A stretch of DNA of 64,000 nucleotides from Acidobacteriota bacterium (GTDB lineage: Bacteria; Acidobacteriota; Blastocatellia; Pyrinomonadales; Pyrinomonadaceae): positions 1 through 64,000 of the forward strand of contig QHXI01000064.1 in assembly GCA_003222895.1 (NCBI GenBank), written 5' to 3'. The notes below the pieces were generated by a model. The model did not search any database. It was not told where the DNA came from and worked only from the letters and a program-made list of their open reading frames with translations. Shown piece by piece: positions 16,745 to 56,556 of this stretch (positions are counted from its first letter, which is position 1; every line of letters begins with the position of its first letter). The position numbers and the translations under genes are program-made.

Positions 16745-16786
16745 AGTAGATTCTGACGGTGATCCTTATGGGATTCCGCACTGGAA

Positions 16787-16960
16787 GTCGGCGAAGCCGA
16801 CGAGCGGTAGTAGCCCAGCACTTCAGTGCTGGGTTGGCAAACAGAAGATGAACGATAGTCCGCGAAGCGGACGACAGACGAAGCGGTAAGCGAAACTCTG
16901 TCGCGAGTTTCACGGGCTTTGGATTGTTGAGGCTTCACCACCCAGCGATGAATCGCTGGG
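16787..16960. repeat. Array of four small perfect hairpins
   Basis: GTCGGC-GAA-GCCGAC (16787-16801), CCCAGCAC-TTCA-GTGCTGGG (16814-16833), GTCCGC-GAA-GCGGAC (16858-16872) and CCCAGCGAT-GA-ATCGCTGGG (16941-16960). Two related pairs alternate, which is typical of REP-like or non-autonomous elements. The array occupies the 276-bp gap between receptor and permease. No T-run follows any stem. Confidence 0.7.
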
Positions 16961-50946: not shown

Positions 50947-50976
50947 TTGACATCAGCGCCGTGACTCGCGTATACA
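50947..50976 (+). promoter_or_regulatory. Sigma70-like promoter of the his operon
   Basis: TTGACA (50947-50952), 18-bp spacer, TATACA (50971-50976). Transcription would begin near 50983, about 17 nt before the leader peptide ATG at 51000. Confidence 0.7.
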
Positions 50977-50999: not shown

Positions 51000-51095
51000 A
51001 TGAGTTTTAGTTGCCATCATCATCACGGACATCACCACCATGCCGCTCATCATCGGCATGTGGCAGCGTGTTCCGGATGGTTGACTAGGGACTGA
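51000..51095 (+). CDS. hisL: His operon leader peptide
   Basis: A 31-codon frame starting ATG AGT TTT AGT TGC and then HHHHGHHHHAAHHRH, ending at TGA 51093-51095. Eleven of 31 codons are His. It lies between the his promoter and a terminator hairpin, 88 bp before hisZ. Ribosome stalling at the His codons when charged tRNA-His is scarce would favour an antiterminator. AAGG lies 9-10 nt upstream of the ATG. A minus-strand frame over the same bases is only the mirror of the CAT repeats. Confidence 0.88.
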   Translation: MSFSCHHHHGHHHHAAHHRHVAACSGWLTRD

Positions 51096-51140
51096 TCGAG
51101 CTTAGCCAAAACACAAACGGAATTTTTAGACCCGCTGCCA
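51061..51140 (+). promoter_or_regulatory. Antiterminator pairing of the his attenuator
   Basis: TGGCAGCG (51061-51068), directly after the His codon cluster, is exactly complementary to CGCTGCCA (51133-51140), which is the 5' arm of the terminator. Pairing would prevent terminator formation. A competing hairpin ATGCCG...CGGCAT (51040-51059) lies over the last His codons. Confidence 0.6.
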
Positions 51141-51170
51141 GAACCCATGTTTGGCAGGGGTTTTTGTTTT
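51131..51170 (+). terminator. Attenuator terminator of the his operon
   Basis: The stem CTGCCA (51135-51140) pairs with TGGCAG (51152-51157), extended by CCC/GGG across a bulged G. It is followed by TTTTTGTTTTT. This is a typical intrinsic terminator 14 bp before the hisZ start, so uninterrupted transcription must read through it. Confidence 0.85.
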
Positions 51171-51183
51171 TAGCGAGAGATTT

Positions 51184-52308
51184 ATGAGCGATCCACTTTC
51201 AGGAATTCCCAGCGGCTTGCGCTACTTCTTTGGCCGCGAAGCGCAGGTTCGCCGAACGATCGAAGACACCGCGCTAGCTGTGTTCGCAGGCTGGTCTTAC
51301 GAAGAAATAACCACGCCCACGATCGATTACTACTCGCTGTTCGAGCAAGGCATGGGCAGCGAAGCGAGCAACTCGTTCCGCTTCATGGATGGGGACGGAA
51401 AGCTGCTCGCGTTGCGGCCCGACGTGACTTCAGGCGTCGCGCGCGCGGCGGTGACGCTGCTTAATCGACGCGAAAGGCCTCTGCGACTTTGGTACGTCGC
51501 ACCCGTTTTTCGACAGCACGCAAAATCACAAGCGGAGTTCCGACGAGAGCTGACTCAGATTGGCTGTGAGCTGTTTGGAGTCAGCGGCGGCCCGGCCGAA
51601 CTCGAAATTCTTTTAATCGCCGGCGAGATTTTTGATCGGTTGGGACTGCGAGATGATTTTGTCATCACTTTGAATGACGTGGAAGTCTTTAATGGTGTTG
51701 TTGAAAATCTAAAGCTCGATTCGACGCAGCGCGCTGCTATGCGAGAGCTGGTGGATAGTCGCAACGCAACCGACTTGGAACGACTGGTTTCACAATTCGC
51801 TTCGGTTGAAGAAAGCAGACGCTTTGCCGACCTCACTCAACTGTCGGGCAAAGGTGATGTGCTCGATGCGGCGCGTCAGGTGATTATGAACGAGCGATCG
51901 CGGGCGGCTTTGGATCGCCTGGAGCGCGTCTGGGAAATAATCACGTCTTTGAACTTGACGGATCGTTTCGAGATCGACTTGGGCGATGTTTCGACGCTGG
52001 ATTACTACACGGCTTTGAACTTCAAGATTTATCTGAAAGGCGCCGGAGTGCGCGTCGGCAGCGGCGGCCGATACGATCATCTAACGGCGAAACTCGGAAA
52101 AGCGGAACCGGCAATTGGCTTCGTAATCGATCTCGATGCTCTGACTGACGTGATGCTTGCTCGCGATGGACAAGAACCGGAAGCGCAAGCGGAAGCGACT
52201 ATGCTCCGCGTCACATCGAACGACAGCCTCACCACGTTTCAAGAAGCGATCGCCGCGCGATGGCGAGGTGAGCGCGTGCTGATTTCACCGCAGGAGGTAA
52301 AGCGATGA
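51184..52308 (+). CDS. hisZ: ATP phosphoribosyltransferase regulatory subunit
   Basis: A 374-residue histidyl-tRNA-synthetase-like protein that activates short HisG. Class II motifs remain: SGLRYFFGREAQVRRTIE, GYxxI-type SYEEITTPTIDYY, LALRPDVTSGVARAA, LRLWYVAPVFRQHAKSQAEF and VGSGGRYDHL. It lacks a C-terminal anticodon-binding domain. ATG 51184 is used; the longer frame begins inside the terminator. First structural gene after the attenuator, overlapping hisG by 4 bp. Its presence agrees with the 215-residue HisG. Confidence 0.9.
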   Translation: MSDPLSGIPSGLRYFFGREAQVRRTIEDTALAVFAGWSYEEITTPTIDYYSLFEQGMGSEASNSFRFMDGDGKLLALRPDVTSGVARAAVTLLNRRERPLRLWYVAPVFRQHAKSQAEFRRELTQIGCELFGVSGGPAELEILLIAGEIFDRLGLRDDFVITLNDVEVFNGVVENLKLDSTQRAAMRELVDSRNATDLERLVSQFASVEESRRFADLTQLSGKGDVLDAARQVIMNERSRAALDRLERVWEIITSLNLTDRFEIDLGDVSTLDYYTALNFKIYLKGAGVRVGSGGRYDHLTAKLGKAEPAIGFVIDLDALTDVMLARDGQEPEAQAEATMLRVTSNDSLTTFQEAIAARWRGERVLISPQEVKR

Positions 52309-52952
52309 GTCAACTGACGATTGCGATCGCTAAAGGCAGGCTGCAATTTGACGCGTTGGAGTTGCTGAAGCGGATCGGCATAAATCTGACAGATGCGACT
52401 GAGACATCCCGCCGTCTCTCGGTCGAAGATCAAACCGGCGAGTATAGATTTCTTTTTGCGAAACCAGGCGACGTCGCCGTCTATGTCGAACATGGTGTGG
52501 CTGATTGCGGGATTGTTGGGCGCGACGTTTTGCTGGAAACAAACGCGGACGTTTTACAACCGCTCGATCTGACGATTGGCCGTTGTCGCATGGTTGTCGC
52601 CGCGCTGGCAGCTGCGCCAGGGAACGGCCATGGAATGCTGAAGGTCGCGACGAAATATCCGGGCATCGCGACGCGCCACTTCGGCTCGCGCGGACAACCC
52701 GTCGAGATTATTCAACTCTCGGGCTCGGTAGAATTAGCGCCGGTGCTTGGCCTCGCCGATTGCATCGTCGATTTGGTCGAGACCGGCCGCACGTTGCGTG
52801 AAAATGGCCTGGCAGTCGTCGAAGAGATCTTTTCTTCGACCGCTCGTCTAATATCTAATCGCGCGAGTTATCAATTGAAAGCGGAGTCGATGATGAAGTT
52901 GCTCGATGCAGTGAGATGTGCGGTCCGTGAAGGAGTTAAGGCGGATGATTGA
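52305..52952 (+). CDS. hisG: ATP phosphoribosyltransferase, short form
   Basis: A 215-residue catalytic subunit performing the first step: ATP plus PRPP to phosphoribosyl-ATP. Seen: LTIAIAKGRLQFDALELL, YVEHGVADCGIVGRDVL, KVATKYPGIATRHF, and ADCIVDLVETGRTLRENGL, the PRPP-binding loop. The C-terminal ACT-like regulatory domain of long HisG is missing, as expected when HisZ is encoded. Start ATG overlaps the hisZ stop. Confidence 0.95.
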   Translation: MSQLTIAIAKGRLQFDALELLKRIGINLTDATETSRRLSVEDQTGEYRFLFAKPGDVAVYVEHGVADCGIVGRDVLLETNADVLQPLDLTIGRCRMVVAALAAAPGNGHGMLKVATKYPGIATRHFGSRGQPVEIIQLSGSVELAPVLGLADCIVDLVETGRTLRENGLAVVEEIFSSTARLISNRASYQLKAESMMKLLDAVRCAVREGVKADD

Positions 52953-54237
52953 AACTATCAACAGCAACGATCGCCAGACGTGGGCGACGAAGCTCAAGCG
53001 CATCCGCGAACGAAGCGTGGCGTTGAACGCGCAACTGATGAATGACGTCGCCAAAATCATCCACAACGTGCGAATAGAAGGCGATGCCGCGTTGATTGAA
53101 TACGCAGCGCTGTTTGACGGCGTGACGATGAATCAATCTGAGCTTCGCATGGATGAAGCGAAACTGAGTGAGCTGTCGAAGCAAATTGATGAGAAGTTAT
53201 TGAGCGCGCTGCGCGACGGAATCGCGAACGTGCGCGCTTTCCACGAGCGGCAGCGCGAGTCGTCGTGGGAGATTGCGCCGACCAATGGCGTGCGCCTGGG
53301 CCAACGAATCATGCCCATCAGCAAAGCCGGATTGTACGTGCCGGGCGGAACCGCGAGTTATCCATCGTCGCTGATCATGAACGTCGTACCGGCGCAGGTC
53401 GCGGGCGTGGAACGAATCGTTGTGGCGACACCGCCGAACGCGCTACAACAGAATCCGGCGATTGCGGCAGCGTTGATCGAACTTGGCGTGACCGAGGTTT
53501 ACGCAGTCGGCGGCGCTCAGGCCATCGCTGCGCTGGCCTACGGAACGGAAACGGTCGCCGCCGTCGACAAAATCACTGGTGCTGGCAATCGCTACGTCGC
53601 CGCAGCGAAAAAGCTCGTGTTTGGCGTCGTGGGCATCGATTCAATCGCGGGCCCCAGCGAGGTGGTGATCCTCGCGGACGACAACGCGCGCGCCGATTTC
53701 ATCGCGGCTGATTTGCTCGCACAAGCCGAACACGATGAAGACGCGTCGTCGGTGCTGATTACAACCAGCGAAACATTGGCGCGTGAAGTTGCAGCGGAGC
53801 TGGATCGACAACTCTCGGCGCTTCCGCGAAAAGCTATCGCCGAAAAATCGCTGGCCCAATTTGGCGCGCTGATCGTTGTTTCGGATTTGGATGAAGGAGT
53901 TTCGATCATCAACGATCTCGCTCCGGAACATCTGGAAATCGTAACCGGTGAGGACGAGGCAATCGCCGCGAAAATCAAAAACTCGGGCGCAATCTTCTTT
54001 GGTTCCTACACGCCGGAAGCTGTGGGCGATTATTTCGCCGGGCCGAATCATGTTCTGCCGACGGGTGGCGCCGCCCGATTTTCTTCTGCGTTGGGCGTCT
54101 ACGACTTCATGAAACGAACCAGCATGCTGCGATATTCACGCGAAGCCCTCGCGGAGTGCGCTGATAAGATCTCGACGTTGGCAAGCGCCGAAGGGCTCGC
54201 CGGGCACGCGCGTTCGGCAATGATCAGAGTGAAATGA
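52945..54237 (+). CDS. hisD: Histidinol dehydrogenase
   Basis: A 430-residue zinc enzyme oxidising L-histidinol to L-histidine in two steps with NAD. Landmarks: GLYVPGGTASYPSSLIMNVVPA, AVGGAQAIAALAYGTETV, ITGAGNRYVAAAKKLVFG, GIDSIAGPSEVVI, LLAQAEHDEDA (zinc/active site), and NDLAPEHLEIV. ATG 52945, with AGGAG 9 bp upstream, overlaps the hisG stop; the longer frame from 52918 would extend further into hisG. Confidence 0.96.
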   Translation: MIETINSNDRQTWATKLKRIRERSVALNAQLMNDVAKIIHNVRIEGDAALIEYAALFDGVTMNQSELRMDEAKLSELSKQIDEKLLSALRDGIANVRAFHERQRESSWEIAPTNGVRLGQRIMPISKAGLYVPGGTASYPSSLIMNVVPAQVAGVERIVVATPPNALQQNPAIAAALIELGVTEVYAVGGAQAIAALAYGTETVAAVDKITGAGNRYVAAAKKLVFGVVGIDSIAGPSEVVILADDNARADFIAADLLAQAEHDEDASSVLITTSETLAREVAAELDRQLSALPRKAIAEKSLAQFGALIVVSDLDEGVSIINDLAPEHLEIVTGEDEAIAAKIKNSGAIFFGSYTPEAVGDYFAGPNHVLPTGGAARFSSALGVYDFMKRTSMLRYSREALAECADKISTLASAEGLAGHARSAMIRVK

Positions 54238-54238
54238 A

Positions 54239-55315
54239 ATGAGCAAGCCGATCGACATCATCAAACCGAGCGTTCGCGAGTTGCGCGCGTACACACTTTC
54301 ACCGCATCGCGCGACGGTGAAAATCAATCAGAACGAAAACCCGTGGGACGTGCCCGCGCGAATCAAACAAGAAACGGAGCGCCGGTTATCAGAGCGAAAG
54401 TGGTCGCGTTATCCGGACTTTGTTCCCATTGCCTTGCACGAACGATTAGCAACGTTTTCGAATTGGACCGCCGCAGGGGTACTCGCCGGAAATGGATCAA
54501 ATGAATTAATCCAGGCGCTTCTGATGGTAACGGTCGGCCAGGGAAAGCGCGTGCTGATTTCGGAGCCCACATTCACACTCTACCGGCAAATCGCAACCGT
54601 GCTCGATGGCGAAGTGTTGAGCGTGCCGCTGAATGAAAGTCTTGAATATGACCCGGACCGGTTGCGAAGCGCGGTGGCTGACTCCAAACCCGATGTAACG
54701 ATCATCTGCTCGCCAAACAATCCGACTGGTTGCCTGATCGATGATGACGATTTGGGTGATCTGCTTAACGCCTCGAATGGTTTTGTTGTGGTCGATGAGG
54801 CTTATCACGAATTCAGCGAGCATTCGGTAGTTTCATTGTTGAAGGATCATCCGAACCTCATTGTCCTGCGAACATTTTCAAAAGCGATGGCCATGGCCGG
54901 ATTGCGAGTTGGTTATTTACTGGCGGCGCCGGAGTTGACGCGCGAAATTGGCAAAGCACTTCTGCCTTATAACCTAAACGTGATTTCGCAGACGGCGGCG
55001 GAAGTTGCGATCGAATTCTACGAAGCTGAAGTGCGGCCGCTGGTGCGCGCGATCATTGTCGAGCGCGATCGGCTATTTACTGAACTTGAAAACATTGATG
55101 GTCTGGCGCCAGTTAAGTCGAACGCGAATTTCATAGTCGTGCGTTCGCGAATAAGTCCGCGAGAGGTCTTCGATCAATTGCTGAAACGCGACATTCTGAT
55201 CCGCGATGTCAGCGGTTATCCGATGCTGTCGGACTACTTTCGCGTAAGCGTCGGGACGCCGGAAGAGAACGACAAATTGATTGCGGCCTTGCGAGATATT
55301 TTCAAACAGGAGTGA
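54239..55315 (+). CDS. hisC: Histidinol-phosphate aminotransferase
   Basis: A 358-residue class I/II PLP aminotransferase converting imidazole acetol phosphate to histidinol phosphate. Landmarks: VKINQNENPWDVP at the start, LAGNGSNELIQALLM, CSPNNPTG, VVDEAYHEFSE and the PLP lysine in RTFSKAMAMAGLRVGY. It starts one base after the hisD stop. Ends overlapping the region of the hisB start. Confidence 0.95.
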   Translation: MSKPIDIIKPSVRELRAYTLSPHRATVKINQNENPWDVPARIKQETERRLSERKWSRYPDFVPIALHERLATFSNWTAAGVLAGNGSNELIQALLMVTVGQGKRVLISEPTFTLYRQIATVLDGEVLSVPLNESLEYDPDRLRSAVADSKPDVTIICSPNNPTGCLIDDDDLGDLLNASNGFVVVDEAYHEFSEHSVVSLLKDHPNLIVLRTFSKAMAMAGLRVGYLLAAPELTREIGKALLPYNLNVISQTAAEVAIEFYEAEVRPLVRAIIVERDRLFTELENIDGLAPVKSNANFIVVRSRISPREVFDQLLKRDILIRDVSGYPMLSDYFRVSVGTPEENDKLIAALRDIFKQE

Positions 55316-55323
55316 ACGAAAGC

Positions 55324-55932
55324 ATGGCGACAACGAAGAAGACCACAACGCGATCTGCCGCGGTCAATCGGCGGACGAAAGAGACCGATGTCCGCGTCAA
55401 ATTGAATCTGGATGGCCGCGGCCGCGAGCGTATCGAGACTGGCTTGCCGTTTCTCGATCACATGCTTTCGCTCTTCGCTCGGCATGGACTGTTTGACCTC
55501 GAAATAGTTTGCCAAGGCGACCTGGAGATTGACGATCATCATTCGGTCGAAGACATCGCGCTAACGCTGGGCCAAGCTTTACGCGAAGCGTTGGATGACA
55601 AAGCGGGAATCAATCGTTACGGCGAAGCGGTCGTCCCGATGGATGAAGCGTTATGTCGTTCAGTTATCGACCTGTCAGGCCGTTTCTATCTGGTCTATGA
55701 AGTGCAAACCAAGCGCCAGAAGATCGGGAATTTCTCAGTCGAACTCGCGGAACATTTCTGGCGCTCGTTCGCCGAAACGGCAAAGTTCAATCTGCACATC
55801 GATTGTTTACGCGGGCGAAACACTCATCACATCCTCGAAGGAACGTTCAAGGCGACAGCGCGCGCGCTGAAACAAGCGGTCGCGCGCGACCCGCGTATTC
55901 AAGGGGTGCCGAGCACGAAAGGAATTCTGTAA
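55324..55932 (+). CDS. hisB: Imidazoleglycerol-phosphate dehydratase
   Basis: A 202-residue Mn-dependent enzyme removing water from imidazole glycerol phosphate. Typical motifs: FLDHMLSLFARHGLFDLEI, DDHHSVEDIALTLGQAL, RYGEAVVPMDEALCR and DCLRGRNTHHILEGTFKA. No phosphatase domain is fused; HisN is encoded separately. Both GTG at 55312 and ATG at 55324 are possible. ATG is preferred because AGGAG sits 11 nt before it but abuts the GTG. Confidence 0.95.
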   Translation: MATTKKTTTRSAAVNRRTKETDVRVKLNLDGRGRERIETGLPFLDHMLSLFARHGLFDLEIVCQGDLEIDDHHSVEDIALTLGQALREALDDKAGINRYGEAVVPMDEALCRSVIDLSGRFYLVYEVQTKRQKIGNFSVELAEHFWRSFAETAKFNLHIDCLRGRNTHHILEGTFKATARALKQAVARDPRIQGVPSTKGIL

Positions 55933-55938
55933 CACTCA

Positions 55939-56556
55939 ATGACGCGCGTCGCAATCATCGATTACGGAGTCGGCAATCTGCGTTCGGTTGAGAAAGCGTT
56001 TGTCGCGGCCGGATGCGACGCCGTCGTTAGTTCCGATCGAGACATTCTCATGAAAGCCGAACGATTAGTGTTGCCGGGCGTCGGCGCCTTCGCGGCATGC
56101 ATGAAAGAGCTATCGCAACGCGGCTTTGATGAAGTGGTGCGACAGCGCGCGGCCGAAGGCGTGCCGCTACTCGGTGTATGCGTCGGAATGCAAATGTTGT
56201 TTGAAGAGTCGGAAGAGTTCGGGCGCACGCGGGGCTTGGCGTTGTTGCCAGGCCGTGTGCGAGCTTTCAAAACGGATCTGCCGATCCCTCATGTTGGGTG
56301 GAACCTGGTTCGACACAAGAAAGCGCATCAGTTGTTCGAAGGGATTGGCGATCGCTCGTTTTTCTATTTTGTTCACTCGTTCTTTTGCGAGCCGACGGAG
56401 GAGGATGTTGTCATCGGCGAGACTGAATACGGTTCACACTTCGCGTCGATCGTAGCGCGCAAGAATATTTGTGGCGTGCAGTTTCATCCCGAGAAGAGTC
56501 AGCAGGACGGGCTGCGCCTGCTTAGGAATTTTGCGATCAGTGATCAGATAAGCTGA
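55939..56556 (+). CDS. hisH: Imidazole glycerol phosphate synthase, glutaminase subunit
   Basis: A 205-residue class I glutamine amidotransferase supplying ammonia to HisF. The nucleophile Cys lies in [13 protein letters not shown] (about residue 79); His and Glu follow in [20 protein letters not shown] is the HisF-contact region. It starts 6 bp after hisB and is followed by hisF after 4 bp, as needed for equal expression of the two subunits. Confidence 0.96.

Follow-up and report, generated by a model that had tools for sequence, protein, structure and literature searches.

The region preceding the histidine biosynthesis operon hisZGDCBH in the genome of a soil acidobacterium (Pyrinomonadaceae, Acidobacteriota) very probably encodes a ribosome-mediated transcription attenuator of this operon, as indicated by its sequence parts and their conservation and, for the switch itself, by modelled folding. 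According to the folding models, the attenuator would most likely let the cell turn the his operon off when histidine is plentiful. In the window (the whole analysed stretch of DNA, 64,000 nucleotides) a leader with 11 histidines among its 31 codons adjoins the start of hisZGDCBH, and an intrinsic terminator lies between the leader ORF and the first gene. The predicted attenuator is a solid, well-conserved and ordinary kind of switch, located in a family for which no description of one was found in the literature searched. It extends leader-peptide control of histidine synthesis, as a prediction, to the Pyrinomonadaceae and accounts for an unannotated region missed by Rfam.

Organisation and distribution of the leader

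The leader region and the operon comprise the following features:

50947–50976, forward strand: promoter-like elements TTGACA (50947–50952) and TATACA (50971–50976) with a spacer of 18, recognised from the sequence
51000–51095, forward strand: His-rich leader ORF by translation, 31 codons, 11 His, stop codon TGA at 51093–51095
51035–51063, forward strand: predicted 1:2 protector or pause-like hairpin, 51035–51038 and 51040–51045 with 51054–51063, fold of −14.3 kcal/mol
51061–51068, forward strand: region 2, lying within the ORF and forming the core 5' arm of the antiterminator, exact complement of 51133–51140
51070–51123, forward strand: distal antiterminator predicted by folding, 51070–51075 with 51118–51123 and inner pairs, enclosing the stop codon
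51130–51171, forward strand: intrinsic terminator, stem 51130–51142/51150–51161 with G51134 bulged, U-tract to 51171, −17.0 kcal/mol
51133–51140, forward strand: region 3 by sequence, 5' arm of the terminator, common to antiterminator and terminator
51184–52308, forward strand: hisZ, first gene of the putatively regulated operon, TIGR00443 at 265.7 bits, just under the cut-off of 271.65
52305–56556, forward strand: hisG, hisD, hisC, hisB and hisH (NCBIfam TIGR00070, TIGR00069, TIGR01141, HisB models and TIGR01855)

The leader ORF encodes MSFSCHHHHGHHHHAAHHRHVAACSGWLTRD, followed by the stop codon, and each of the genes from hisG to hisH matches at least one NCBIfam model above its cut-off. An initial sequence-only reading of this DNA had noted an 8-bp complementarity between region 2 and the 5' arm of the terminator, a competing hairpin over the last His codons, and the location of region 2 within the ORF about 25 nt before its stop. 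All three were borne out: TGGCAGCG at 51061–51068 and CGCTGCCA at 51133–51140 are complementary to the base, ATGCCG (51040–51045) and CGGCAT (51054–51059) are present, and the stop codon starts 24 nt after the end of region 2. RNAfold lengthens the hairpin by CCAC (51035–51038) with GUGG (51060–51063), leaving C51039 bulged, to a total of 10 bp. In this form it spans the last His codons and takes in the first three bases of region 2, so that 1:2 and 2:3 are mutually exclusive and would truly compete.

The 8-bp match is only the core of the predicted antiterminator. Folding of 51061–51140 gives 17 further pairs enclosed by the 8 core pairs (about 25 bp, −26.2 kcal/mol); the loop contains the stop codon of the leader. 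The other homologs have 8–27 enclosed pairs built from differing sequences, and the distal helices of relatives differ yet are complementary, for example in L003 (UUCGGGU/ACCCGAA-type). The alignment is too gappy for column-wise covariation of the distal helix, and no claim is based on it. Leaders L020, L021 and L023 contain additional strong hairpins within the tail as well as around the stop codon (e.g. GCGTGAGTAG..CTCACGC), which would make the antiterminator multibranched there.

The family sample consisted of 119 genomes, including Pyrinomonas methylaliphatogenes, and 31 of them carry a close hisZ. A His-rich leader was found in 28 of these 31, twice in one of them, giving 29 copies; in two of the remaining hisZ genomes the contig end is too near hisZ to tell, and L037 has no leader. 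The His-rich ORF is found at the same place, and the terminator is kept, in all 29 copies, while the antiterminator core is clearly in register in all but one. In L017 the architecture is retained with the pairing shifted toward the base of the terminator arm. No His-rich ORF was found within 700 nt of hisZ in 18 hisZ genomes of other families (L038–L055). The hisZ gene of L037 is preceded by a CCGCTGCC..GGCAGCGG terminator, located after the end of a LysM-like gene.

A putative promoter, consisting of TTGACA and a TATAAN-like −10 element with a spacer of 17–18, precedes the leader ORF in 26 of 27 homologs. In L025, L027, L030 and L031, as well as in L020, L021 and L023, the leader ATG is located 9–13 nt past the −10 hexamer, mostly with no obvious Shine-Dalgarno sequence, and judging from this arrangement the leader peptides of these genomes may be translated from nearly leaderless mRNA.

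Folding of the leader and the position of its stop codon

At low levels of charged tRNA-His the ribosome would stall on the His run (codons 6–20), keeping 1:2 open and region 2 free; 2:3 could then form, the terminator would not, and the operon would be transcribed. With enough histidine the ribosome would proceed over region 2 into the tail of the ORF, at first covering region 2. Afterwards region 2 would lie behind the ribosome, where 1:2 can refold, and the ribosome would stand between regions 2 and 3; the terminator 3:4 would then form. Placed past region 2, the stop codon probably holds back release of the ribosome until the terminator has been made, and basal read-through would thereby stay low.

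Folding with ribosome-masked segments, which the sequence-only reading had proposed, was performed on transcripts ending just past region 3, with all RNA as far as 12 nt downstream of the A site blocked. In all 27 homologs a stall on His codons frees the antiterminator in the model before region 4 exists, with P(2:3) of 1.00 at the best stall and 0.94 on average, and a ribosome past the His codons abolishes it, P(2:3) dropping to about 0 once region 2 is reached. His-stalled real leaders gave 0.95, as compared with 0.71 for codon-shuffled and 0.48 for base-shuffled ones, and the real leader lay above the mean of both kinds of shuffles in 27 of 27 cases (P = 7e-9, a value that overstates the independence of these related sequences). 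The antiterminator computed in the 27 homologs, with shuffled controls, thus excludes the terminator in a way gated by the position of the ribosome.

Equilibrium folding of full-length leaders was discarded as the main test, as the terminator always wins in most homologs. Among 12 homologs tried, it won at all ribosome positions in most, and in these the predicted switch must therefore be kinetic. For the window, full-leader equilibrium folding also displays the switch for stalls at codons 9–11 and 17. If pairing across the ribosome is allowed, a ribosome on the last codons or the stop of the window leader still permits 2:3 with P above 0.9, and termination in the presence of histidine would therefore depend on steric blocking or on refolding of 1:2. 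In ribosome-free RNA 2:3 is favoured by 11 of the 27 leaders, and super-attenuation is therefore no uniform prediction; for the window P(2:3) is 0.18.

Region 2 is located upstream of the leader stop in all 27 homologs. The tail between region 2 and the stop ranges from 4 to 44 nt (mean 24, SD 13, n = 27; 24 nt in the window), while the distance between regions 2 and 3 is nearly constant at 65 ± 10 nt. Longer tails go with shorter distances from the stop to region 3 (rho = −0.55, P = 0.003, without correction for relatedness). The suspicion of the sequence-only reading, that region 2 would be less well masked once the ribosome stands at the stop, holds for 18 leaders, i.e. the window and 17 others, whose tails of at least 18 nt leave region 2 uncovered; it fails for the nine with tails of 12 nt or less, in which a ribosome at the stop covers region 2.

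The consequences of this placement were estimated in a kinetic sketch that took its rates, which are E. coli values, from Elf and Ehrenberg (PMC1183508) and assumed 2:3 to be blocked by a ribosome standing between regions 2 and 3. The mean read-through was 0.16 with histidine, 0.88 under starvation, and 0.33 with histidine and the stop moved before region 2; the corresponding values for the window were 0.12, 1.00 and 0.18. The probable role of the tail is inferred from this sketch. Elf and Ehrenberg described two ways to lower basal read-through, namely, a stop codon far downstream in region II, and an extra hairpin as used by the enteric his leader (PMC1183508). We tentatively propose, with somewhat less than even confidence, that the coding tail and the drifting stop act in the Pyrinomonadaceae as a timing device, retaining the ribosome between regions 2 and 3 until formation of the terminator, and that two designs of his attenuator occur within the one family: a long-tail class I associated with hisZ, and a class II, associated with a long hisG, in which region 2 abuts the stop. 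Such a tail is the design that Elf and Ehrenberg put forward in place of the additional hairpin found in the enteric his leader (PMC1183508).

Credible as well, if on the whole doubtful, is a variant compatible with attenuation in which termination in the presence of histidine results mainly from refolding of 1:2 after departure of the ribosome, the tail being neutral. The drift of the stop over 4–44 nt while the spacing of regions 2 and 3 is maintained would agree with this variant, as would the low P(2:3) of the ribosome-free window RNA. However, 2:3 is favoured in the free RNA of the 11 homologs mentioned above, and the kinetic sketch, with its assumed rates, gives higher basal read-through when the tail is removed. 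The natural series of stop positions at nearly constant spacing of regions 2 and 3 is suited to testing how stop placement affects basal read-through.

Conservation of the alternative pairings

The 1:2, 2:3, 3:4 switch proposed by the sequence-only reading is supported, as a model, by covariation and by conservation independent of the codon frame, in addition to masked folding in the 27 homologs. Core 2:3 is found at the same place in the 27 complete leaders, with standard pairs in 85% of cells versus 26–56% when the partner is slid, and for hairpin 1:2 the paired fraction is 76% versus 22–49%. The pairs of terminator 3:4 are retained across homologs, and its 5' arm is CCGCTGCC-like in nearly all of them. 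Compensatory changes were looked for and found. The 2:3 pair 51065/51136 is standard in 28 of 28 leaders, as A-U, G-U or G-C, with G-C on distinct branches of the HisZ tree (L026; L024 and the L033/L035/L036 clade). The 1:2 pair 51043/51056 is C-G in nine homologs and G-C in nine others. Loss of the 8-bp pairing in close relatives that keep the terminator, named by the sequence-only reading as evidence against the switch, was not seen: GGCAGCG/CGCTGCC is retained in L003, the nearest relative. The codon frame of GGCAGCG varies, from GTG GCA GCG in the window to GGC AGC GTG in its sister L003, and it is therefore the RNA pairing rather than the peptide that is conserved.

These data bear on the possibility, which we consider very improbable, that the terminator acts constitutively or marks the end of a short sRNA, and that the GGCAGCG match is a by-product, due either to a repeated GC motif or to conservation of Gly-Ser-Ala codons. 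Region 2 is indeed similar to region 4, GSA is read there in many homologs, and an 8-bp match has a probability of about 0.01 by chance in one leader. More precisely, when the window leader is shuffled, an exact match of at least 8 to the terminator arm turns up in 1.1% of cases by dinucleotide and in 0.6% by codon shuffling. On its own this is weak evidence for the pairing; conservation across homologs decides. A by-product is contradicted by the retention of the motif in different frames, by 2:3 pairs that change on both sides among homologs, and by pairing that exceeds the shuffles in 26–27 of 27 leaders, own-leader pairing being better than that of codon-shuffled leaders in 26 of 27. The energies of own and swapped duplexes differ little (−19.3 vs −17.4 kcal/mol) because the terminator arms of the homologs are alike.

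Still more remote is a functional metal-binding micropeptide followed by a coincidental terminator: His runs in other small proteins bind Ni, Zn or Cu, but this ORF sits just before the his operons of both HisG types, and its length, C-terminus and frame vary while the RNA pairing is conserved.

Relation to known leaders and a second class in the family

The same method applied to E. coli K-12 leaders served as a yardstick. The antiterminator arm lies after the stop in trpL, pheL and hisL, around it in ivbL, and inside the ORF in leuL (33–28 nt before the ORF end), ilvL (33–18) and thrL (10–2). An in-ORF region 2 was initially considered as an unusual feature and rejected, E. coli leuL and ilvL being alike in this respect. 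The sequence-only reading suggested that the detailed mechanism might depart from the textbook model; the geometry does differ from that of E. coli trp, his and phe, but it is also that of leuL, ilvL and thrL. The geometry of the window, shared by the 27 homologs, is already known and stands out solely in comparison with trp and his. The leuL and ilvL leaders of the leu and ilvGMEDA operons likewise have an ORF with control codons that contains the 5' arm of the antiterminator; in these two the arm lies 18–33 nt from the ORF end, and about 20 nt separate the stop from the start of the terminator. The amino acid, the sequence and the phylum are different.

The E. coli trp attenuator (RF00513) has the same four-region 1:2, 2:3, 3:4 logic, but its region 2 begins after the stop codon. 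The E. coli his leader (RF00514) likewise combines a His-codon leader before the his operon, alternative hairpins and an intrinsic terminator; however, for most His stalls its antiterminator arm lies 36–47 nt past the stop, and the leader employs an additional hairpin. At E up to 1 the RF00514 model did not match the window, nor did it match the homologs at the gathering score, while E. coli scored 131.6 bits. With the same E limit the T-box model of Rfam was likewise without a match in the window. Rfam detects the his and trp leaders of E. coli and yields no leader match at this locus.

His leader peptides have been described for Proteobacteria and Firmicutes (PMC9413887, PMC2965389). The his attenuators of Firmicutes (PMC9413887; Naville and Gautheret, PMC2965389) resemble the predicted one in having a His-rich leader peptide, a terminator and an antiterminator before his genes, hisZ included, but are described there for Firmicutes only. 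In the literature searched no description of a his leader peptide was found for Acidobacteriota, although an earlier prediction is possible in the wide attenuator survey of Lopatovskaya 2010.

In the 19 family genomes examined that have a long HisG and no hisZ, a His-rich ORF is located upstream of hisG in every case (L073 being less certain). About half of these class II leaders have a TCGCG-like region 2 that directly adjoins the stop codon and pairs with the terminator arm. Class II leaders (L058–L076) are unlike class I also in a promoter region with GCTTGCAAA, a leader ending in ..RVN before the stop, and an AU-rich spacer. The leader class therefore follows the HisG type within the family.

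Histidine synthesis is itself patchy across the Pyrinomonadaceae by hisG counts. The gene is present in just 66 of the 119 genomes (40 of the 69 of good quality), and four genomes of the genus to which the window belongs do not have it. The whole G000 genome has no match to trpE (TIGR00564) or ilvB (TIGR00118), although his genes are present, and its best leuA match (L080) runs through two stops, which suggests amino-acid auxotrophies or assembly gaps. Elsewhere in the window, positions 16786–16833 of the reverse strand match the Rfam Acido-Lenti-1 sRNA at 39 bits, with a gathering score of 37.
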